A stretch of 54,279 bases of DNA from Pholiota molesta (taxonomy: Eukaryota; Basidiomycota; Agaricomycetes; Agaricales; Strophariaceae). Shown piece after piece: positions 1,248-25,099 of this stretch. The notes beneath the pieces were generated by a model, which saw only the letters and a list, made by a program, of their open reading frames with translations, searched no databases and was not told where the DNA came from. The stretch is from positions 1-54,279 of the forward strand of contig JACGCK010000271.1 in assembly GCA_014925825.1 (NCBI GenBank), read 5' to 3'. The position numbers and the translations under genes were made by a program. Numbering within the stretch: position 1 is the stretch's first letter; each line of letters begins with the position of its first letter.

Positions 1248-2265
1248 AGGTAGAGGAAATCCATAATCATCCAATGTCAGGTGATGTCAGATGACGTGAC
1301 ATGGCTGTGACGTCTAAGCCCAACTGATTGATCTGATTGAGAGATGGTTGTACTACACACGCTGAAACTTTCCCTCGTACATTCACTTTATCGTCTTCAT
1401 TTCCTTCCATTACTACACCGAGACCATATCTGATTGATATCTGAGGTACATGTATATGTTGTACAGTAAGTAATCCCATTAATATCCCATAATAATAATA
1501 ACAGTTCATAAAGATGAAATCAGGGTGAAATATTTGCTTTTGCGAGGTCATCCAAAACATGGTGGCCGCAATATTTCTTCGATGCCCATGCTGCTTGCTT
1601 TCCACTGAGTCCATGATAATAGACATGCATGAATTTCCGTGAATGCCATGAATATCTATTGTTTCTGATTAGTTTTTGTAGCTCCCTGACACTGAGTGGT
1701 TAGAATAAAGTAAATGGCATGCACCACCGCATTGTTGCAATTGGAATTAACTCGAGGGAAGACAAAAGGCTTTTCTGCAGGTCTTCCTCCTTTGATGACA
1801 CCAGATAGTAGATACTGACAATGGATACTTGAGTGTCAAATAGCACATATATTTTCCTTGTCACTGTTGTTTACTTCATCCTCAGAGTTGTTTGAGGTCT
1901 TCTTCTTCTTCTTTAAGATCCAGCTAGATAGGTTTTTAATACTTACATGCAAGCTTCCATTTCATTGGTGGCACCATTGTTCTCCTGTCAATCTCTTGTC
2001 TAAGAGCTTTGCTGTGCTAATAGATCATGTGATCATATTAATTTCTTACCCTCAACACCACTTGTAAATCTATCAACAACTCCTGCAATCCGACTTTCCC
2101 ATATATTTTCTCACCGGAAATGCTGAAATCAAGATTCAATTTTTTGGGTGAAGACAAATCTGTAAATTTAACCCACAAAACATTGTTGATAGATTTTCTA
2201 CCGTTTTGTCACTCAAAATCACGCTGAATCATGTGATATTAGATGACTATGTACTTCCTCTACCT
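1248..2265. mobile_element. non-autonomous TIR element (Tc1/mariner-type MITE), ~1.0 kb
   Basis: The left end AGGTAGAGGAA... and the right end ...TTCCTCTACCT are inverted copies, continuing as an imperfect inverted repeat of about 38 bp (shared GTAGAGGAA, then CATA-TCATC-AAT). The element is flanked by TA on both sides (1246-1247 and 2266-2267), the target duplication used by Tc1/mariner elements. The interior is AT-rich, has an ATA microsatellite near 1490 and a CTT run near 1900, and has no recognisable transposase, so it is non-autonomous. A 119-codon minus-strand frame inside it (1267-1626) does not look like a known protein. Confidence 0.65.
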
Positions 2266-2442
2266 TAGGCCACAACACTTCAGCTCGAAATTTCCAAACC
2301 CAAGACCTCTAAGGCTGTGTTCGATTGCTTTTCCGCCGTGTTTTTTAACGTGCTCAGTAGCAGCAGTTTTCACAGTTTTCACAAGCCCTTTTTGAGCCTC
2401 CGCGTTCCAAGGAAATGTTTCTAACATGTGATTTACTGCCAT
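2260..2442 (-). other. possible small gene fragment ending in the element's TIR
   Basis: A 60-codon frame of plausible composition (lysine-rich, e.g. KTVKTAATEHVKKHGGKAIE) starts at 2442, and its stop codon is supplied by the right TIR of the neighbouring element. It could be a gene truncated by the insertion or chance. Joining it across an excised element gives a stop after a few codons, so the evidence is weak. Confidence 0.2.
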
Positions 2443-2878
2443 GTTTTTCAGAAGATAACAATTATAGCCCTATAATTCTATCTTCCTACATAACGACAAC
2501 CTTCCGGTACGGTCTCTATCTTCTATTCAATTCATCAAGAGACGAATCCACCATCTACACTTTGAGTTCTTGACACTATATTATATCGACTTAGAATTTA
2601 AATTTCGTCTGTCCCAAATATTTTGGCAAGACAGAAGTTTGAATCATTGACGTACGAACAAGAGATGCTAAGGCCTTCGATATGGCGGTAGACATCCTTA
2701 GTCCGATTGATTATATACGCCCATGTAGGGTTGTTGTGCGTTCAAATTCTATCCACATCTTATTATCTATACCATCTTGCATCAGAAAGCCTCAATCAGA
2801 AATATATAGCTCAAACCTTGAAGGTCAAACGGTGGGTTAAGAAATGGTCAGCTCGACAAAGAAAGTAGAACTTGGGAT

Positions 2879-2881
<3 letters not shown>

Positions 2882-2918
<37 letters not shown>

Positions 2919-3321
2919 GTTAAGCGTCTCGCAAATGGCAGCGAACCCCGGTCACACCCCATTCACGCGCTGGTAAGGAGGTGAATTCCATTTATGAACG
3001 AACACAATCGGAGTTGTGAACAGTGTGGGACTCAGGAGGGGGTCTCTACGCCATTTCTATTGCCACGGAATACAAATAAATGGTATTGCAGCGCCGTGGC
3101 CGGGATTTTTGTCTCCGCCGGCAGGACCCCAAATCCTACTACCCACTAAACACCCCCTACCGGTACTGGGATTGGCCAATCGAGGACCTGCCGCCATTTG
3201 ATAGTTGAAATCGTATGCGACAGGGCTCGAAACAAGGACCTCGCCATAGCGGTTTACCCGCATGACTCCCCAGCAGGAATGTACAACTTTCGCGAAATAT
3301 CCGCTAGGCTACACAGCCGGC
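2882..3321 (-). mobile_element. tRNA-related SINE with poly(A) tail and target duplication
   Basis: Read on the minus strand, the element begins near 3321 with a tRNA-like head. This head has a box A match (TAGCCTAGCGG) and, about 65 nt on, a box B match (GTTTCGAGCCC), the two internal RNA polymerase III promoter elements. The body is about 330 bp with no protein-like frame and ends in a run of 36 T on the plus strand (2882-2917), that is a poly(A) tail. Perfect 16-bp direct repeats TAGAACTTGGGATAAA flank it at 2866-2881 and 3322-3337, a target-site duplication of the length expected from LINE-type target-primed reverse transcription. The intact duplication and long homopolymer tail suggest a recent insertion. 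The parent tRNA was not identified. Confidence 0.8.
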
Positions 3322-3489
3322 TAGAACTTGGGATAAATAAACACTAATAACAGAATGCTTCAACATCTAGATAGACTTTAGATGGAACATCGAAGTGAAG
3401 TATATACATCAACTAACATTACAATAAATTATAAGTAAACCGCCATACCAGTAACCAAATTAACAACTAACGTACACTCTGCTCGTATG

Positions 3490-13063: not shown

Positions 13064-13065
13064 TA

Positions 13066-13241
13066 TTGCTGTTCACGAAATTGTTGGCCACAGCTGCCTT
13101 TTCGGGCGAAACCGAACTTTTCGTCACGTTTGGGCTGTAATATTGTATCGACTGTAGCACACTCATTTCTTACTCAAATGCCACGAAAGTTACAGATTCA
13201 GAATTGTTGCGTTCACCGCTATTCAGTAGTGCCAAGAAATT
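13066..13241. repeat. left TIR of Element A (176 bp)
   Basis: Starts TTGCTGTTCACGAAATTG directly after TA. It is inverted and about 97% identical to 16533-16708. The outer part contains short repeated motifs (TTTTCG, CGAAA) that could be transposase-binding sites. Confidence 0.9.
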
Positions 13242-13364
13242 GAGGAAATGTGTAAGTTGATGCATTTGTGTTAGGGGGTTCAAGTAGATAGTCATTCGGT
13301 CTCAATAGCTATCTTACTGCTCTACTACTGCCCTAATCTTGATCTGTATACCTCTATTGCAAGC

Positions 13365-15180
13365 ATGCCCCCCAAGAAAACCAAGAATACCAAAGCTCCG
13401 AAGCAGAAATCAGCAGCCAAAGCGTCCAAAGCTGCCCCAGCACCTCCCAAGAAGCCCATTTCCGAACCTAGCCGTATCCCAAAGCTGAAAATACCGCCAC
13501 CAAAGCGTGCTGAATCACCCGAAGAACAGGAATCTGACTCTCCATCCATTACCCCACCTCCTGCCGACCCACATCACCCTGCCAAAGTCAAGGCAGCAGT
13601 CGCACAGCTCTTGGGTTGGGACACACTTGCCGACCTTTCGAGCGATGCATATGATTCTGAATCTGACGACATAGCTTCGAATAAGCGAAAACGCGCAGTA
13701 TCAGATGCCACTTCAGCTGCCCTGGATGATGAAGCACAAGAAGAGGCAGCTGCCACTAGTACTGCAGCAGAGGAAGATGACATCGACGAGCAAGATGAGC
13801 TTGATGAGGATGGGGATTCTCAGTTAGATGAACCCCAGTCTGAGGAAGAAGGTAAGCACTACGGATTTTTCTCAGCTTCGAAGCTAAAGAAATACCTTAC
13901 CAGTAATTCAACTTCCCTTCTCTGTTCCATCCGATGGCACCAACTCAACAATACTTGTCCCTGATGACATTACATTCCGTGAGCTTATGTCGCAAATAGC
14001 AAATGAGCTGTCGGTCCCACCTAAGGCTGTCAAAGTAGCCTACAGGTTTACCGTCGAACCACGTAGTGCCCCTTGGTCACATTTGCATAGTGATGCCCAT
14101 CTTGCGGAACTCATCAAGAAAGCAAAGCTCACCCTGGAGAAGCAGAGACGAAGCAAATCTACGCGCGCATCTGCAGTTGAGCTCAAAGACCTCGCCCCAA
14201 GCTTGGATAAGAGAGACACAGGGAAATCGAAGGGCAAAGAGTCTGCGCGAGAGAAAGATAGAAAGCGGAAGAAGAAGAAGGTGAGCCCAATTCGGTCATG
14301 GTCTCAGTGCAGCAGTAACGTCTCTATATTAGGCCCACACAACATCCGACTCTGAAAACAGCGCTGATGATCTTGATCCTGCGAAGATTGTGTCCAAAAA
14401 GAAAAGCGCAACACAATGGATTGAACAAATCGAAAAAGACAATGCTTGCATGGAACATATTGGTAAATTCTGCATCAAATTCACGACCCATCACCACCAG
14501 TTATCTAAAGAAGATATCGGGACATGGGCAGTTCTTATGGTGAAGTAGTATTATATTTTAGCTCAAGTCAATGTCGCTAAACATAATTCCAGACACATAA
14601 CTATGCTTCGACAACTGTTCCACCAAAGGCACTCAAAATTGGTGATAAGAAACCCGAACTCAAGGCAGAAACTCATGCACCCACCACGGAACTTCCTCAG
14701 CATCCGAGCATGGCTTATCAATATGGATTCAACCATCCCATGTATATGTATCCACCCCCGCCAATGCCGCCATTTATACCTGGATATTCCATGCCATATC
14801 CATCAGGCAGTAGCCGCAACTATGAAAGTCATCGCCCTCGATACTCATACCGCCACGACGATAATATGCCAAGCTCCGATCCACCCGAGGAAATTGAAGA
14901 TGTCAGTCAATTCCCCCTTATTTCAGAGTGGCTCCAAGAGCTCGATAATGGCCCTCGTGGAGCAGATGGCCATCACTTCTCCCAGTTTGTTCCCTTCTTT
15001 CAACACCACAAATACATCCGCATTTGCGATATTGCTGATAATCTGGATGCTAGTTCTCTTTCTGCAAAGTGCGAAGGAATAGCTGATGGAACAGCACAAA
15101 ACATTATTTCTTACACAAGAGCAGATACTAAAGCTATTCGACGTAGAGAAGCTAAGAAAGGAAAGGCCCGCCTTTACTAG
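13365..15180 (+). CDS. accessory protein of Element A (unknown function, putative zinc-binding core)
   Basis: Four exons (13365-13851, 13904-14280, 14333-14539, 14593-15180) join in phase to give 552 residues. The N-terminus is basic and K/P/A-rich (MPPKKTKNTKAPKQKSAAK), then acidic and disordered. A folded block follows (VPDDITFRELMSQIANELSV, VAYRF, APWSHLH, AELIKKA). Next is a lysine-rich, NLS-like run (DRKRKKKK) and a Cys/His core C-x2-H-x-G-x2-C with downstream HHHQLS and TWAVLM. After a P/M/Y-rich linker there is a C-terminal SAM-like helical region (FPLISEWLQELDNG ... DIADNL ... GIADGTAQNIISYTRA). The same modules occur in the same order in the accessory gene of Element B (21150-23202), so this is a conserved transposon component. 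It is probably nuclear and may bind DNA or protein; no enzymatic motif is seen. Confidence 0.8.
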
Positions 15181-15196
15181 ATTATCATAGATACTA

Positions 15197-16418
15197 TTAT
15201 CCTATACATGAATAGCCAGAATGCTCAAACCATCCTTTTGCGCTCTCTTCAGTTACAGAATAAACTGCCTGAGAAAGTAAACAATAAACATCAGTATCAT
15301 CTTTTTCCATCATCGCCTCCCGAAGTATACCACCATGGCGAGAAATATATAATTTGATCGAAGAAAATGCAAGCTCAATAGGGTTGTAATCTGGGGAGTA
15401 AGGGGGAAGAAACTCATAATGCATACCCCTGTTCAATTGAGATTAGAATAGAGGATAAAAATAATTGTATATTCAGACTTGCCGTGCTATTATCATCTCT
15501 AAAATGACTGGATCTTTGTGAATTCTGCAATTGTCCATCACAATCACAGAGTTGGGTAGAGGGAATGGATTCATTTGATCAAGTAGACCACTGATAAAAT
15601 GCGCAAAGCGTCGTTTATTGTATGATCCTTCAACTATGTCCAGTGCAATAATCCCATCTAGAGATAGTGCTGGGAGGAGCGAATATCTACAATTACAGAA
15701 TATTAGAATAGTAAAACTTATCAGAAACAAGACTGACCGGCGTCCACGGACAAAGAATGCCTTGCGGACAGCACGTCGACCCCCAATTGCCCATGCATAG
15801 CCGCGGTAAGTCGTTCGTCGATCTGCCGCACTTTCATCGACAAAGACAAGCTGTTGAGAGTTATATCTTGTCGCAATTTTGAGGACATAGCGTGCCCGTT
15901 TGCGAGAGCTGCGTTCAACAGCATTACGTGAAAGCTAACACACAAAAAGTTAGCTATGGTAGTATCCTCAAAAGTCAAGCTACATACCTTCTTCATGTGA
16001 TATCCCCCACGCTTGAGTGTTTTCCATATGAGTTGAAGTGATGCCCGTGTCCCACATATTGCTCCTAAGGAGTCTCGAAGCTCGTCGAGATAGATATCGC
16101 ATGTCTCGTTGACTGTGCCATGAATGAACTAGATCATACGGTAATGCAACGAGATTGGTCAGATTTTTTTGAGTGTTATGAATGAGAACATACCGCAACC
16201 TCCTCCGCACTCAAGTGACGTGGTCTTCCCCTTATTCTATGGTTTGGCCTCGAACGAACCACTGTTCCAGTATCTCGCCATAACTTTCCAATCCGCCGCT
16301 GTTGTCGCTCGCTAATATTGGTGAATGCCCGTATTTCCGTGGGGCTGAAGACATCTGACATCCGAATGACGGTCTCCCGTAGAGTTTTTGGGATTGTTAC
16401 ACCTTTAGGCATGCTCAA
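15197..16418 (-). CDS. DD34E transposase of Element A (DDE_3 superfamily)
   Basis: Five exons (start Met at 16418 or 16412) encode an N-terminal helix-turn-helix region (SPTEIRAFTNISERQQRRIGK, then RIRGRPRHLS) and a DDE endonuclease. The catalytic blocks are LVFVDESAADR (first D), SVIVMDNCRIH (second D) and FLPPYSPDYNPIELAFSSIK (E), with 34 residues between the second D and the E. This is the Tc1-like DD34E spacing. The intron before the last exon is best read as a GC-AG intron (GCAAGT donor), which restores the frame exactly. With it the protein has no premature stop and looks functional. It should cut and paste Element A at TA sites by recognising the 176-bp TIRs. It is related to the transposase at 23369-24559 but clearly diverged. 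Confidence 0.85.
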
Positions 16419-16532
16419 TGAATGTTACATGGAGGTGAGGGTGCAGTACAAGGATGAGAAAGTCACGTCTCAAGGTTACTCACCCGGAGTGACCTGTCAT
16501 TAGGCATTCTATGTAAACTCAACCAATCTGAT

Positions 16533-16708
16533 AATTTCTTAACACTACTGAATAGCGGCGAGCGCAACGATTCTGAATCTGTAACTTTCGTGGCATTTGA
16601 GTAAGAAATGAGTGTGCTACAGTCGATACAATATTACAGCCCGAACGTGACGAAAAGTTCGGTTTCGCCCGAAAAGGCAGCTGTGGCCAACAATTTCGTG
16701 AACAGCAA
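16533..16708. repeat. right TIR of Element A (176 bp)
   Basis: Inverted copy of 13066-13241, ending CAGCAA before the TA target duplication at 16709-16710. Confidence 0.9.
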
Positions 16709-16710
16709 TA

Positions 16711-17302
16711 AATATCTAATCTCGCGCTCACTTCTATCGGACTACTCCCTGCGTGAGCCGCGTCGCTTGATAGTGACTATTATATAGATGAAGGATTTTC
16801 CTACTGACCAATTTCTTAACCCATGTACAACCCATATACCAGCCGTGTGAGTGATCGTCCAAATGTTCAATGCAGCTCGATAAGTATGAGGCATGGGCTG
16901 GGCATGGGAATGAATCAGTTCTAAGATCTAATGATTGATCCCACACAACAATATGAAGTGATTGATTGCCCTTATCAGATAAGCTCAATATTATAGTCAA
17001 CGAGAGACTAGTCTACATACTCACATTCCAACCCAAAAAAAAAATTCCACATCTCCATCGAACATTGGAATGCAAATTCCACCGAAATAGACCCAAATGC
17101 GAATGGCAAAAGATGGCAAAGGCAGCAAAGCTACATAGCGTTGGAGCTCCTAGAGCCTGATCGGTCCGAGTTATGACTCGACATAAATAACCGAGGGACT
17201 TCTATTTTAATTTTCTGTTAGAAACGACAATCACTGAAGGTTTATAAAACCCCTTCCATCCGACGACGGTGGCCAGCTCGCTCTCTTTCTTCCAGTCATC
17301 CG
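16711..17302. other. intergenic: upstream region of the first MFS gene
   Basis: No coding signal. The 600 bp between Element A and the MFS start codon must hold that gene's promoter. A TATA-like TATATAGATG lies near 16791 but too far upstream to assign. Confidence 0.4.
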
Positions 17303-19391
17303 ATGATGGCCACAGACGCAGAAGACACTCCATTGCTCTCGTCTGACGCGAATGATTCTGAAGCCGATCACAATGCAGTGTACCGCCGTTTCTCCCCAAG
17401 AAGAAAGGCAGTGATCCTCATTATGGTCTCTGGTTGTGGTATTATACCGTGTAGGGGATATAGCAACGCAGAATTCATGACATGTACTGACTGGATTGAC
17501 TCTCTCCAACAGTGTTCGTCACCGGCACATTCACCCCATCTATTCCACAGATCGCAAAAGACCTTAATACAACTGGATCCGTTGTCAAGTGTGTTTCAAA
17601 CCCTGATTTGCTGACCCAAAGCTAATTCTCAATACAAAAACATAGCTTGGCTGTCAGTTTATCAGCATTTTCCGGATCCGTTGGGGGGTTGATAGGCGGT
17701 TCATATTCGACATTTTGTATGTTCATTTCATTTTCTACCTCCATTCTCGTTTCTGATAATCTGAAAGACGGACGCAGGCCACTTTATCTGACCTCTCTGC
17801 CATTCTTAATATTTGGCTCGGTCGGGGTGGCTACAGCTCTCAATGTGCCCTCGCTATTATTCTGGAGATTTATACAATCCGTTGGGGCAGCGCCAGCCAT
17901 GGTAGTAGGCGCAGGCGTTTGTGGAGATATCTATAAGCTGGAAGAGCGTGGTCGAGCTATGGGCGTTTTCTTTGGGGTACGTTATCTCAGCGACAGTATT
18001 GAAAGTTGATATTCTTATTTACTACCTCCACAGGCTTCGTTGCTGGGCCCATCTTTGGCGCCTTTAGTTGGAGGTACTTATCCGCTATTTTTTTTTTTGA
18101 CATATGCCGCACCAATGACTCAATACCATTCAAAGGCGCTGTTAGCCACTATTTCTCTTGGAGGATCATGCAAGGCAGCATCGGCATCATCGGCTTATTC
18201 GCCTTTTTTTCCATGCTTTTGTTCTTCCCAGAAACAAGTCAGCCAGGGGCGCGAGGCATTGACAAGTTGAAAATCGAGGAAGGTCCAAAGTGGAGGAAGA
18301 GATTTATCTTCGTGAATCCATTGCGTCCCATGCTATTGCTTCGAAGTCCTAACTTGCTATTAATTGTATGTATCTATGCCACAGTTCTGTTATTTCTTGA
18401 ATGGCTAAATTTCTGGTTTTTGCGACAGTGTTTAGCGACATCTGCGACTCTGATGTCCGTGTTTGGTTCGTCTTTTTCCTTGTATGATTCTCCTGAAAAC
18501 TTGTCCTAACATATACTCTAATTAGCTTTGCTAGTTCCGCTACCCTATACACTTGTGAGTTGCGTACAATCGAAGTAGGCGACCTATATATGAATGAGTT
18601 GTGACAGGGAATTCGGTATGGACTTAAAAATGAAGCCCTTCTGGGGCTTTGCTTCATGCCTGCTGGTCTGGGAAACATACGTGCGTTGTTCCATTCACCA
18701 CCGCTTCTTTTCTGAATTTGAGAAGTGGGTGCACCTATCGTTGGACGGCTATCGGATCGCGCGGTGGTTCAATGGCGCCAGAAGCGTGGCGGTGTTTGGT
18801 ATCCCGAGGACCGTTTGAGGGCGGGGTTGCTCCCAATGGCAATCTATGCTCCAGTCCCTCTAATTTGTTTTGGGCTGGCAAACAAGTACGTGGATGGCAC
18901 TCCAGGTCTGGTTCTCTGTTTAATTTGCCTATTCTTCAATGGCGTGGGGGTGAGCTCTCCAAAAACATTGATCTATCCTGGAAATTGATCTATGCAATGG
19001 TAGGTTGAGATGTCATTTGGTGCGTGCGCTGCATATCTAGTCGACGTCATGCACTCTAGGAGTGCAGAAAGCTTAGGCGCCAACAAGTATGTCACACTTC
19101 CCTCGTCTGACCGCCGACACTGACTCCAACTAAGTGGTCTACGCGCCATCCTAATGGCAATTGGGATTGCCGCCATTCTCCCGATGATAAATACCTTTGG
19201 GATATTGTTCACGGCTATATTACACGCCATATTTCTCTGGATAGGATTTGGGTGCGTTGAACCTGCATCGTACTTGTGCGATACAGGATACTGACTGATG
19301 CGAATTTAGAATGGTTTGGTCGATCATCCGATATGGAGATCGGATGAGAGCATATGTCGATGTCGGATTTTCTACTGATAGAAATAATTGA
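17303..19391 (+). CDS. MFS transporter, DHA1-like drug:H+ antiporter type (paralogue 1)
   Basis: Thirteen exons separated by 12 short introns give a 12-TM transporter. The N-terminus is cytoplasmic and acidic (TDAEDTPLLSSDAND). TM1 enters VFVTGTFTPSIPQIAKDLNT, the loop 2-3 motif is DGRRPLYL, and TM4-5 carries AAPAMVVGAGVCGDIYKLEE with RGRAMGVFFG, typical of DHA1-type transporters. The second half shows GLKNEALLGLCFMPAGLGN, VGAPIVGRLSDRAV, GGVWYPEDRLRA and a C-terminus YVDVGFSTDRNN. It is an integral membrane exporter, probably of the plasma membrane, with unknown substrate. The gene at 25100-27187 has the same exon plan and the same C-terminal FST--NN, so the two are tandem duplicates now separated by Element B. 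Confidence 0.85.
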
Positions 19392-19569
19392 CGGCCGTAA
19401 AAGAGGATGGGCACGGTCTGAATCGTTTAAATACTCCTAGAGTTGATGTACTTAAAAGCGTGCAAACATGATAAGAATCATTAGATATCGGCAAACATTT
19501 AAACATCCGATCAAATTCCCCACGACGCTTTCATAATCTGACTCAGAAATTCAAATAACTCTTCTATAA

Positions 19570-19670
19570 CACGGCGGACATTCAACTGTCAGGTCGTGCC
19601 GATACTTGCGCTGTTAGGTTTGTGTTACAGCTACTTTCATATCGATAGGCCGGAATTTTCAGAATAGACG
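19570..19670. repeat. left TIR of Element B (about 100 bp)
   Basis: Outer part CACGGCGG...CTGTTAGGTT and inner part TTACAGCTACTTTCATATCG...AATAGACG both recur inverted at the right end (24671-25041). A few mismatches are present, for example GATACTT versus GGCACTT. Confidence 0.85.
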
Positions 19671-19808
19671 TACAGGCGGACCTCGAATTTTAAGCTCAGC
19701 ACAATGGCTAAGGCGGCAACAACAGGTATATATTTCATGATAGCATCAGAACAAAAATAGCAAAAAAACAATAAAAAAACGACGTAGGGGGTCCAACAAA
19801 GAAAATCA

Positions 19809-20856
19809 TTACAAAAATACATCGGGCGGTGTGGTGGAACCAGCGACAGGCAAAATAATAATGAACTCATGGCCGTCGAGGAGGTCTCCGAGAACCCATT
19901 TCCCTTTAACCTTGTAGGAAGCCAGCGCAGCAAGGGGTTCTCGATGATCAACAAAAAAGTTAGTGAAGACTGTGGAAACGGTACCCTCCAGAGGTTTGTC
20001 CTCAAACAGGGTTCCACGAAGCTCCATTTCCTTAACATAGGCTACAGGTGAATGTCGCAATATGTCTCTTGCGTTGACGCGACAAAATTCAAGGTCGATA
20101 CCATAGATTGTGGTACCTGAGTCAGCAGTGAGGGAGAGGAATACGATACAAAGAAAGAACCGCACTAGAGTACTTGCAAATTGCGTGGCAAGCAGCAGGG
20201 TGAGAAGATACCAGGCCAATGGCATTGATCCCGCGGAAGAAAGGTACGTCCTTGAGCATCTGCAGAAGCTGTGTCGCGATGTATTTTTTTCGTTCCGTGA
20301 GATCCACCACCAACTGTGTGACCCAACCGACACGCCCTTGCCATAGATATCAGCAATCAAATAGAGAAAAATAAGAAATAAACCCTCACCATTATCATAA
20401 TCCCACACTGTAGCAAACGCGTGTCCAACAAGTTCCATCTTGGTCCAGTCCCCCCCATGGTACATGTCAGCACTGTGACGGAAGCAGGTGGCAAGGACAG
20501 TGTTCCGTGGTGAAGCCACACACTGCTGGCGAAGACGCTTGCCGGACATCTTAACGCGACTTCCTATATACAAATCAACGTCAGTCTCAGTTCGCGTAGG
20601 GAGAAAGCAACCTACCTATCTTGGGGCCTTTCACTGATTCGGGACGCGGTCCCCAAACGCCATAGTGATTCCCAAACAACTCCGCGCATCGTTCAAGCAG
20701 TTCATCTGAGATTTCCGGCCCATTGAAGGTAATGTAGGCGAGACAATTGGAACCAGGAGAAGTCGGGAGGATGATCGACCCCGTCGGAGGAGTGCGAGGT
20801 TCAGTGGGGGACACAGGAGGTGGAGACAAGGACTTCGTCTTTTCGATAACGGACAT
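19809..20856 (-). CDS. GNAT-like protein carried inside Element B (apparent cargo)
   Basis: Four exons join in phase, from Met at 20856 to TAA at 19809. After a proline-rich start (SLSPPPVSPTEPRTPP) comes a globular region. Its blocks are ELLERCAELFGNHYGVWG, LVGHAFATVWDYDNGRVGWV, TQLVVDLTERKKYIATQLLQ, INAIGLVSSHPAACHAICKY and a long C-terminal part ending LGDLLDGHEFIIILPV. The strand-then-RKKYIATQLL-helix arrangement resembles the acetyl-CoA-binding core of GNAT acetyltransferases, although the Q/R-x-x-G-x-G/A loop is not canonical, so the activity is an inference. The gene lies between the left TIR (134 bp away) and the accessory gene, with a shared intergenic region of 293 bp that may act as a bidirectional promoter. 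Element A has no counterpart. Confidence 0.65.
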
Positions 20857-21149
20857 GCGAAGAGGATAGAGGTTGAAGGCGACGTTGAAAGAGCTTATAA
20901 ACCTGATTGTTTGGTTTATCAATATTTGGCCATGGAACAGATTCATCACGTGAACCGTCCGACGTCAAAGCCCATCCCCTGGTCGTCGCCACCGTCTACT
21001 AGCGTATCGAATGATATTGAGCATGATCGGAATAAAAAAAAATGTGCCCAGGTCGAGCAGAAAAAAAATCAGCCAATAATGCCGAATAAAAAAAACTAAT
21101 ATAAAGAGACGTCTTCAGTCCCATTGCACTCCATCCTCCATCGAGTCCA

Positions 21150-23202
21150 ATGTCTTCCAACCAGCAAAGTCCTTTCGGTCACCCAGTGCCTTTTGCAAGT
21201 CTTGGAGGTCATCCAGGCCTCCAATATGGTGGCGCGTTGCAAGGCGCTATGTCACCGATGTTCCCTCCTGGGCTTCCGCACCCTCAGCATCCTCAGCATC
21301 ATCCTCAGCCCCACTTTTTACCTCAATTCGTTCATCCCCAGTACCACCCATCGCCGATGATGCCAAATCCATACGGACAGCTCCAATACAGGGCGCCAAG
21401 TGTTCCTGCTCATATAGCAAATCAGCAAGCACCTCCGACAATTCCAGAACCACAAATACCGGTGCCGCGATCACAAGCTCCAGTCCCCGCAAAGAATCGG
21501 CCTAACCGCGAAATTCGTCCAGGAGGTACATTCAGTTTTGACAGCTGCGGAAATATTATCTGATCTTGCGTCTGTATAGTGTTTGTTATTCAAGCAGACG
21601 TCCTCGATGGTGAGAAAAGGGAGAGTTTCTACGCAGAGACAGATATATCGTGGGTAGAATTTCGCGATCGCGTCGTTAGGATTCTTGGAGATCCGCAAAA
21701 GGTTGAACTGTCTGGAAAGATTACGAGCGAAGGAAAGTGGGCGGTCTTGAATGGGGCGGAGGGATTGGAAGGAGTTATGCAACGGATTTGCCAAAAGGCA
21801 TTCAATGCCAGAACAAAATCGGTTGGGCTTGAAGTCAAAAACACAGCAGTGAGTTCTTCTGTCCTTTGAACTCAAGGGTGCAACTCACATAGTGTAACAG
21901 ATAACAGCGCCACCAAGCAAGCCCAAGTCGAAGGGGAAACGCTCTCGGAAGGAAGATATACCTCCAATGCCGGAGTCCGATGGCGAAAACGATGTCCAAT
22001 ACACGGCGTACAAGCAGCTTACAGAAGAGACGCGGTGCGAAGCTCATCATGGCCATTGCTATGTTACTCGCCAGGGCGGTTCCGACAATCACCATCGCCT
22101 CTCGCATCAAGAAATGACGCTTTGGGCAAAGAAAATGGTGAGTAATTATCAGACAACATAATGGAAACATGAACTTACGTTTGACTACTGTTCTCAGAGT
22201 CTCAACGAGGCAACGAAGTATGCACCACCCCATTGCCTCAATTTTGATCATGGCCCAATCTATAAATCGGGTAAACGCACTGCATCAACATCCTCAATCC
22301 CAGAGGTCCATGTTACCATCCAAAATATCACCCCCGAAGGACCCTCCCTCATGCCCTCTATAGGTGGATCATCTGGCGCAGTTCCAGCCTCTATATCCAG
22401 TGCCTCTACTAGCCCCAAAGTTCCCTTACCAGACCAATGGTCTGGATTATCATCATCGATGATTCCTTCAGCGTCAGCTTCAATCATGTATCAGCAACAT
22501 TCCACTGCGCCACCCATCATGTATCAGCCATCTTCCACTACACCTCTCAGCTCGATTCCTTCAACCTCGAGGGCAGAGACTCCATTTCACATAAGCGCTG
22601 ACGTACCTGCTGATTCCTGGGCAAGACCTACGACCTCATTCCAGAACCAGAATGTTTTCCCGCCTCTTTCCGCTGTGATGGCTCTACTTGCCTCGGAGCG
22701 TCCTGGACAGCACTGGAATCAATTGGAGATGTTCCTATTGGAAGCTGGAGTGTACTCATCGGAGCACATTCTGCTGGCAGATCCACTTGTGCTGTCCTTC
22801 GTTGGGAATATGGGCGCAAAACAGACAAAGGTTCTTCGCAACTACGCAAAGCGAGTCGTGCTTCCAGTTTTAGGGCTCCGAGGGACCTACCAAGAGGACG
22901 AAGACTCGGATATTGACGGAGATCACATCATAAGCACACCACCTACTCGGAAACGGCGTCTCGATCTCGGAGAGGCCGTTGTTCATAATTTCTTCAAGAA
23001 GCCCAAAGTTGAACCTGTCGATGTTCAACCGTTACCACTGGAGCCGACATTCCCTGCCAGCGAGCCATATTTTTGGGGCCATATCGATGGTGGAGGAGAA
23101 GTGATTGATAATGGGGAGGGGAGCTCTGATGAAGAAGAAGACCAGTTACATTCGGATGATGCAGAGGGCGACTTGGACGACGAGGACGAAGGAGAACTCT
23201 AA
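21150..23202 (+). CDS. accessory protein of Element B (homologue of the Element A accessory protein)
   Basis: Four exons encode about 620 residues. The N-terminal domain is P/Q/H-rich and disordered (FPPGLPHPQHPQHHPQPH). Then come a folded block (VQIL-type strand, DISWVEFRDRVVRILGD, KWAVLNGAEGL, RICQKA), a basic linker (KPKSKGKRSRKED) and a Cys/His core RCEAHHGHC (C-x2-H-x-G-x-C) followed by HHRLSHQEMTLWAKKM. After a serine/proline-rich stretch there is a SAM-like helical block (FPPLSAVMALLASE ... EMFLLEAGVYSSEHI ... VLRNYAKRVVLPVLGL). The acidic tail ends SDEEEDQLHSDDAEGD. The Element A protein has the same module order. Function unknown; a DNA-binding or transposition-helper role is plausible. 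Confidence 0.8.
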
Positions 23203-23368
23203 TTGATCATTACTATTTACAGTTATTTTGCTTTGCTTTTTCCTGGCGGTTTTTCAACAAACCTTACGATTTTCTACACTAATTTACCTCTTGTATATAG
23301 TCAAGCTCAACGCTTTTATAATCAACTCAGTAGACGATAGTTAGAATAGAATAATTGATATAATTTCA

Positions 23369-24559
23369 TTAGGCAATATACTCGCTATTCCGATACCACC
23401 CATAGGCTTTCTCCGGGGTAATTGTACTATAAACAGCCTCCCAAATCAAAGCGTAGGCATCGCAATTTCGTCCTTCTGTCTCGCTGAGGACATAATTGCG
23501 ATTCGCCCGCAGCCACGATTTGACACATGAAAATCCTTCTTCAATGGGATTGAGGTCAGGCGAGTAAGCTGGAAGAAATAATAACCGCATCCCACTGAAA
23601 GAACAACATGTTAGAAAAGAACACATTTAGCACAAGGGAAAAAACGTACCGTTCTTCGATCATCTCCCGTATTCCTGGAACATGGTGTATCCGTGCGTTA
23701 TCCATCACGAGGACTGAGTTGGGTAGAGGCCATGGCTGCATCTGATCGAGCACGCCCTTGACGAAGTTGGCGAATTCATGCCCAGTAAAGGCGTGATCAA
23801 GCACCTCAAGGTGTATGACACCATCAAGTGAAAGAGCAGGAAGGATAGAGTACCTGAATGAGTGTTGTATGATTGAGAGTGGTGATAAACGGGGGCAACA
23901 AACCGAGCACATACCGTCTGCCGCGAACAAAAAAGTCACGTCTCCTTGCACGATCACCTCGCGGGGCCCATGCGTAGTTTCTTCGTAATGAGAGACGGTT
24001 GTAGTGGCTTTCGTCTGCGAAAACCAAGTGGTGGGGTTGGAAATATTCACCCACAAGCATCTTGTATTCAGCGCGATCACGTTCATTGCGTTCGATTGCC
24101 GGGCGTGTCACCTAAACCAGATAAGCACATGGGATATCAGTGAAGGCAGAGACTACCTTCTTTCTAGAGAATCCTCGACGATGTAATGTCCTGTGAATTG
24201 TTGAATGCGATGCATCAATGTAACATACATGCCGAAGGTAGTCTGCGATTTCAGAGAGCATGATATCGGGCTGTCGCTCGACAAGGTCCTGCACAAACTT
24301 CAAAAGTTGATAGGAAAGGTTTGGTGACGTATAGAGAAGAAGAACTTACCATGGCATCTAATGAATTCAGAAGCCTCGGACGACCAGCCACCACAGGTTT
24401 CTTCACAACATCTCCGTCCTTTTGAAACTGTGCTCTAATGCGCCTCATAGTCCGAGGCCGAATTCCTGTATACCTTGCAATGTGTTCGTCGCTAACACCA
24501 GAGTCCAGTGACATTCGAAGGGCCAGCTCCTTCTCTGCTTTGGAAATGTGTCGGCGCAT
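23369..24559 (-). CDS. DD34E transposase of Element B (DDE_3 superfamily)
   Basis: Five exons, Met at 24559 to TAG/TAA at 23369, read without premature stops. The N-terminus is an HTH region (KAEKELALRMSLDSGVSDEH, RTMRRIRAQFQKDG, AGRPRLLN). A second HTH-like stretch follows (MLSEIADYLRHVCYIDASHS, TIHRTLHRRGFSRKK). The catalytic blocks are HLVFADESHYNR, NSVLVMDNARIHH and FLPAYSPDLNPIEEGFSCVK, with 34 residues between the second D and the E. Introns have canonical GT...AG ends. The stop codon lies 167 bp from that of the convergent accessory gene. The protein looks complete, so Element B may still be mobile. Confidence 0.85.
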
Positions 24560-24670
24560 AGTTGGGAAGAAAGGTAGATCTGTGGTGCGAATACTAAGCG
24601 TCGAGCGACCCCCCCAAATGATGTCCTTAGCCGGCGGTCGGAGTTCAGTGCAAGATTTAGAGTCCGCATG

Positions 24671-25041
24671 CGTCTATTTTTAAAATTCCGGCCTATCGAT
24701 ATGAAAGTAGCTGTAAGTTATTGTTAGGTTGCTTTTAGGTTAATGTTAGGTTGCTTGTTAGGTAATAAGCGAGGTAATATTTTTGTCACGGTATCTGCTG
24801 TCACTCTGTGCCGCATTAGATTTGTTAAGACCCTGCCTATACAATAGCCTACGTGAGCATTACATTTGTTGATACACGAGAGCGTGACAGCCGAGCTTGT
24901 GACCACTTGTATTACCTCGCTAAATACCTAACAGCCACCTAACAGCCAACTAACAGCCACCTAACAGCCAACTAACAGCCACCTAACAATAACCTAACAG
25001 CGCAAGTGCCGGCACGACCTGACAGTTGAATGTCCGCCGTG
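24671..25041. repeat. right TIR of Element B, interrupted
   Basis: The inner part 24671-24716 and outer part 24994-25041 are the inverted counterpart of 19570-19670. They are separated by a foreign 277-bp palindromic segment. Confidence 0.8.
24717..24993. mobile_element. 277-bp palindromic insertion rich in GTTAGGT/ACCTAAC repeats
   Basis: The ends GTTATTGTTAGGT and ACCTAACAATAAC are perfect inverted repeats. Inside them are arrays of GTTAGGT-like repeats on the left and CTAACAGCC(A/AC) repeats on the right, and a further inverted pair (GCGAGGTAAT near 24770 and ATTACCTCGC near 24910). It lies exactly inside the right TIR of Element B, where the left TIR has only 7 bp. No coding capacity. 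It looks like a small MITE or foldback element. Confidence 0.6.
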
Positions 25042-25099
25042 TAAGTAATGCTCATATACAAAAGGTACCTCGCTAACCGCCTCTTTCTCGTCCCCCACA

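Follow-up and report, generated by a model that had tools for sequence, protein, structure and literature searches.

A convergent second gene, predicted to encode a PB1-SAM protein, in two Tc1/mariner elements of Pholiota molesta

The Tc1/mariner transposase is the textbook example of an enzyme that works without any further protein encoded by its element, and this independence is one reason for its use in gene delivery across hosts. What, then, might be the role of a second gene that is found in two elements of this type, A and B, on contig C192 (54,279 nucleotides, referred to in what follows as the window) of the 65.6-Mb Pholiota molesta assembly? The answer that we favor, with confidence and doubt evenly balanced, is that A and B belong to a two-gene Tc1/mariner lineage encoding a DD34E or DD35E transposase and a protein made up of PB1-like, core and SAM-like modules, with the second protein an oligomerizing cofactor of the transposase. 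This reading is based on observed gene content and orientation, on the terminal inverted repeats (TIRs) of A and B and the TA duplications flanking them, on homology, on sister pairs shared by the trees of the two genes and on selection in one pair of loci, together with folds that are predicted.

Two elements and their proteins

The features of the two elements are as follows.

13066..16708: element A, 3643 bp, TA duplication at 13064-13065 and 16709-16710
13066..13241, + strand: left TIR of element A, from inverted-repeat search
16533..16708, - strand: right TIR of element A, from inverted-repeat search
13365..15180, + strand: second gene of element A, 552 residues, exons 13365-13851, 13904-14280, 14333-14539 and 14593-15180, supported by homologues
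15197..16412, - strand: transposase gene of element A, 330 residues, DD34E, exons 16412-16194, 16128-15988, 15934-15738, 15686-15483 (GC donor) and 15428-15197, hand model
19628..24713: element B proper, 5086 bp, TA duplication at 19626-19627 and 24714-24715
19628..19670, + strand: left TIR of element B (CAGCTACTTTC...), inner inverted pair I3
24671..24713, - strand: right TIR of element B, inner inverted pair I3
21150..23202, + strand: second gene of element B, 628 residues, exons 21150-21525, 21580-21848, 21901-22137 and 22198-23202, acceptor at 21579 backed by homologue P0001
23369..24559, - strand: transposase gene of element B, 325 residues, DD34E, exons 24559-24350, 24297-24157, 24111-23915, 23853-23650 and 23594-23369

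A preliminary description of this DNA had placed element A, with its long TIRs, at 13066-16708, and these limits are exact: the termini, TTGCTG at 13066 and CAGCAA at 16708, are both flanked by TA, and the arms as detected (13062-13241/16533-16712, 180 nt) are 97% complementary. Element B, in contrast, had been drawn at 19570-25041, which has to be corrected. Two nested inverted pairs surround B, and we rejected the outer one as its ends because those arms are the ends of a miniature inverted-repeat transposable element (MITE) shared with other copies in the genome. The true ends, 19628-24713, are those of the inner pair (19625-19670/24671-24716, starting TTACAGCT), with CAGCTA at 19628, TAGCTG at 24713 and TA flanking both.

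Each element encodes an intact DD34E transposase on the minus strand, as had been proposed, with five exons in both cases and one GC-AG intron in A. The two transposases are 44.8% identical, have a catalytic spacing of 34 and match DDE_3 (E 2.5e-26 for A and 7.3e-29 for B), which is the sole nuclease family matched by either, neither qualifying as DDE_Tnp_4. For a helix-turn-helix, transposase B gives HTH_32 (E 5.2e-7) and HTH_23 (E 2.9e-5), neither of which quite reaches the curated cut-off, and in transposase A no Pfam helix-turn-helix match was obtained at E <= 1. DDE_3 with DD34E, the TA duplications and the TIRs place both elements in Tc1/mariner. Our gene finder differs from the hand model at one point per transposase, starting A at an inner ATG (the hand model was used) and deviating in B by three residues at one acceptor. 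The plus-strand second gene was said to have four exons and to end beside the transposase gene, and it does so in both elements: the genes converge, with stop codons 16 nt apart in A, where neither frame contains an internal stop, and 166 nt apart in B. Exact agreement of the gene finder with the two second genes is not independent evidence, since both were in its four-gene training set.

Products of 552 and about 620 residues had been reported; the first length stands and the second becomes 628, the homologue search for B and the alignment A2 having used a 622-residue version. Searches gave 12 relatives for A and 8 for B, with named sources that include Gymnopilus, Piloderma, Steccherinum, Suillus, Cyclocybe, Mycena and Hericium, all of which we take to be Agaricomycetes. 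Single-sequence BLASTP between the two proteins is weak (24% over 78 residues, E 5e-4 to 9e-4). When the two families are compared with hhalign, the alignment begins in the N-terminal block, ends in the C-terminal block and covers 322 columns (E 2.1e-12), against a best E of 0.038 in 24 column shuffles and 0.0013 for a reversed alignment, so that the proposed profile check did not fail and the module order claimed for both proteins is indeed the same. Judged by their profiles, the second proteins of A and B are homologous. Eight second proteins of other elements, used as queries, produced 53 matches among 7998 candidates scored, and 37 of these 53 make up a third alignment, A6, from which P0044, a longer model with DUF6830, was excluded. 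Alignment A6 matches B with E 2.3e-9 and A with E 4.2e-5 in a region comprising the PB1-like block and the core; 24 shuffles for each comparison have minima of 0.17 and 0.12, respectively, and the reversals give 0.52 and 0.17.

Structure prediction, put forward earlier as a check on the core and the C-terminal block, was applied to homologues of two distant families, and each model shows, at the level of fold only, a PB1-like domain, a core of alpha-beta-beta-alpha type and a C-terminal SAM-like domain. The second protein is thus predicted to be of the PB1-SAM scaffold type. Pfam matches to PB1 and SAM lie far below the cut-offs, a search of solved structures by sequence returned nothing at E <= 1, and a viral structure library returned nothing at E <= 0.001. 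Pfam at its cut-offs finds no DNA-binding domain in the second proteins, nor is there a Myb/SANT-like Pfam match, the core not having been searched on its own.

Distribution, descent and selection

Searches of the genome with both transposases identified 16 loci, C192-A, C192-B, C2, C23, C30, C59, C85, C113, C135, C144, C168, C181, C322, C389, C440 and C608, where, as for all genome searches here, locus and match counts are lower bounds. A second gene of the kind seen in A and B is present at 15 of the 16; for C440 and C608 there are short gene models only, yet the protein matches span most of the length of the gene, and at C168 it was detected by profile only. The preliminary description had named stand-alone homologues lacking a linked transposase as the observation that would count against it. 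In this genome the reverse search with seven second-gene proteins led to 15 places, 14 of them adjoining a transposase, and the only other one (G000:C599:75454-75624) is a 50-residue fragment, the N-terminus of a C144-type second protein; with these seven queries no full stand-alone second gene was found.

The layout is constant, the second gene being convergent with the transposase at 15/15 loci (12 by gene model, three by match coordinates) with a stop-codon gap of 16-166 nt across the 12 that were modeled. The ten second genes modeled outside the window have 4-6 exons. A phase-0 intron follows immediately after WAxx[M/I/L] in all 12 models, which amount to about 11 independent ones because C85 and C144 are near-identical, and most have further introns before or after the PB1-like block. 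An independent NCBI model, P0021, agrees with the C23 second protein at 100% identity over the 78% matched and has the same splice at WASAM, and a second NCBI model of the same species, P0022, has three extra residues after WSSAM compared with our own model. The second-gene model of C389 was merged by hand, the N-terminus of C113 and the transposase model of C30 are doubtful, and the forced-splice models of C30, C113 and C608, which may bridge defects, are not counted as intact.

Between groups the transposases are only about 29-50% identical, and of 12 models 8 have a catalytic spacing of 34 and 4 one of 35 (C30 and C322 outside the count). The second proteins also vary. The Cys/His core that had been described as conserved is often present, but its Cys and His residues are missing in the C30/C181 and C85/C144 groups. 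Basic stretches with 5-9 Lys/Arg per 12 residues occur in 12/12 second proteins, a count that has no chance control.

Measured two-gene elements are about 3.0-5.1 kb long and often end in TTACAG[C/T] (B, C30, C59, C85, C144, C322, C23 and C389), in place of which A and C168 have a common TTGCTGTT. C23 and C389 have short TIRs (16-17 nt, 88%) that come from a permissive search, C181 has a left end only, and no TIR pair was found at C2 and C440. A pair in L057 was tried as the ends of a two-gene element and dropped, as it belongs to a Harbinger-type element. That PIF/Harbinger-type element at C440 (L057:2351-5761) has 154-nt arms and a DDE_Tnp_4 match of E 1.9e-21; open frames on the opposite strand converge on its transposase and have no Pfam match at E <= 0.01.

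Copy numbers are low. The arm of A matches only A's own two arms and the second gene of B only itself, and there is one degenerate relative of A in the genome, on C2 (G000:C2:562512-583818), with its halves about 21 kb apart. We considered and rejected two copies here, as positions 1353-1815 of the A region map to C2:584 kb and 1811-3355 to C2:562 kb on a single strand, from which we conclude that this is one degenerate copy that has been split. The halves overlap by about 5 bases, like a target duplication.

Four strongly supported sister pairs, C30/C181, C59/C322, C23/C389 and C85/C144, are common to the transposase and second-gene trees; deeper forks of the second-gene tree, including that of A with C168 and B, lack resolution. 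The ratio of nonsynonymous to synonymous substitution rates (dN/dS), suggested earlier as a check on both genes, could be evaluated for C59 and C322, where both copies are open. Values for the second gene are dS 1.38, dN 0.265 and dN/dS 0.19, and dN/dS is 0.05 for the transposase; by module the ratio is 0.27 for the N-terminus, 0.16 for PB1, 0.10 for the core, 0.19 for the second linker and 0.14 for SAM, the first linker being saturated, and the bootstrap range of the ratio of nonsynonymous to synonymous differences (pN/pS) is 0.30-0.42. In this one informative pair, therefore, the second gene is under purifying selection. Three other pairs are not used as evidence of selection: in C23 and C389 synonymous sites are saturated in 4/6 modules and the ratio is 0.41 and 0.61 in the remaining two (bootstrap pN/pS 0.44-0.58); in A and C168 they are saturated; and C85 and C144 are too close, with two models that differ (transposase 0.60, second gene 0.48). 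Of the earlier proposal that selection keeps the second gene for a function in transposition, regulation or target choice, what stands is a conserved partner, by the locus counts, the shared pairs and the ratio of 0.19; that it acts in transposition is a further step, which we word conditionally below.

Element B and its host MITE

Three further features lie in or around B.

19569..19627: left end of the MITE that B is inserted in, earlier taken as a TIR of B
24714..25042: remainder of the MITE, right arm 24984-25042
19809..20856, - strand: GNAT-like acetyltransferase gene within B, about 297 residues, hand-picked splice model, PF00583 E 6.8e-4, just under the cut-off

The outer 59-nt pair has 40 scored arm matches in the genome among 57 candidates, including the two arms of the window and those around C59. 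Eleven copies that we fetched (L058-L068) are about 315-365 bp long with both arms present, and the arms of the family measure about 59-62 nt (CACGGCGGACATTCAACTGTCA) and enclose repeats of TTAGG type. Copies L058 and L061 continue unbroken across the insertion point of B (TTTGTGTTAGGTTATTG), which establishes that B jumped into the MITE and also backs its TA duplication. The C59 element lies within arms of this MITE family as well, so that the left MITE arm is adjoined by two different Tc1/mariner elements.

The GNAT-like gene, absent from the preliminary description, is divergent from the second gene of B. Its splice model is unsure (the gene finder gave a shorter one of 152 residues), and two paralogues, about 51% identical, lie on C41 and C12; it is perhaps a captured host gene, carried as a passenger. 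Open frames resembling pieces of transporter genes, which by eye we take to be MFS-like, are found at 17222-19000, between A and B, and from 25049, after B.

Role of the second protein and comparison with known systems

We prefer a transposition cofactor because the second gene has been kept at nearly every locus across such divergent transposases. On this view the basic stretches would take the protein into the nucleus, PB1 and SAM would mediate its multimerization, and at the TIRs or the target it would keep the transposase in place or license it, full activity then depending on the two products together; the same two-gene unit would be expected in other Agaricomycetes having the second protein. 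For linkage in other species, collections of viral and prokaryote contigs returned nothing, a weak test because neither is designed to include fungi. The evidence that weighs most heavily against an absolute need for the second gene is C135 (L047:4358-5867), a single-gene element of 1510 bp with 76-nt arms that match at 100% and an intact transposase model, which suggests recent movement of a relative that lacked the gene. The transposase tree joins C135 to C113/C608 as sister (support 99/98). Since midpoint rooting nests it in the two-gene group, loss at C135 is the simplest reading, although the tree has no outgroup and the gene may instead have been gained by all of the other loci. A stricter form of the cofactor proposal, in which an obligate two-component Agaricomycete lineage has a transposase that works only with a PB1-SAM scaffold pairing the ends or choosing the target, and in which single-gene copies such as C135 use the scaffold in trans, is one that we put forward only tentatively.

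Two serious rivals to a cofactor are a regulator and an anti-silencing factor. The second protein could be a self-encoded regulator that multimerizes with the transposase or titrates it and so limits copy number, in keeping with the few copies of A and B, with the identical arms of C135, which lacks the gene and looks as it would after a recent move, and with a second gene that evolves fast while its domains are constrained. Age and silencing predict low copy number just as well, however, and no high-copy element that has lost the gene was seen, and we consider a regulator unlikely. In plants, the element Hiun encodes VANC, which counters host silencing, and the second protein might similarly bind to the chromatin of its own element and oppose methylation or RNA silencing by the host. 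Fast evolution, the basic stretches and predicted folds of types that often self-associate would fit such a function, but the lack of any DNA-binding domain by Pfam at its cut-offs does not, and we rate it as quite unlikely.

A single capture of a host gene, carried since then as a passenger with no role in mobility, is improbable as the origin of the second gene. Capture may happen, as B holds a GNAT-like gene with genomic paralogues, and PB1 and SAM are common cellular folds; a passenger would nevertheless hardly be found in the same place and orientation at 15/16 loci, with purifying selection in the informative pair and no full stand-alone copy found in this genome with the seven query proteins. 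Unrelated neighbors joined by chance insertions can effectively be dismissed, for although nested elements do occur in this genome (B within the MITE, for example), the convergent layout is constant and mostly within matching TIRs, and one intron position is common to 12/12 models.

If a Tc1/mariner lineage retains a second protein under selection, the independence of the transposase would not be universal. Matched two-gene and one-gene relatives in a single genome would provide a ready test system, with C135 as the natural one-gene control, and the results suggest where a family of proteins annotated as 'hypothetical' in Agaricomycetes may have come from.

Among known systems, PIF/Harbinger elements also have two genes, a transposase and a dedicated second protein, which there is Myb-like. 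The nuclease differs, DDE_Tnp_4 there and DDE_3 in A and B, and Pfam gives no Myb-like match for the second protein here. The second protein resembles PB1 and SAM proteins such as Cdc24, NBR1, Eph receptors and p63 in the folds predicted for two of its three modules, and no sequence relationship was found in solved structures. Our search of the open-licence literature, which left Repbase and subscription papers outside, turned up no mention of Tc1/mariner elements carrying a PB1-SAM gene. In the portions of the sources consulted, pogo elements are described with one or two open reading frames encoding transposases (PMC7386202), and the ciliate TBE and Tec elements with additional ones (PMC7325037). 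Compared by description, these are a zinc finger protein and a small open reading frame in TBE and a site-specific recombinase in Tec, as opposed to a predicted PB1-SAM protein in Pholiota, and the hosts are different (PMC7325037). Another close system is the TIR_1 family of Pleurotus ostreatus, listed at 1.6 kb and described with a transposase (PMC4905642): it shares the DDE_3 transposase with DD34E, the TIRs and the TA duplication, whereas the Pholiota two-gene elements are longer and carry in addition the convergent second gene.

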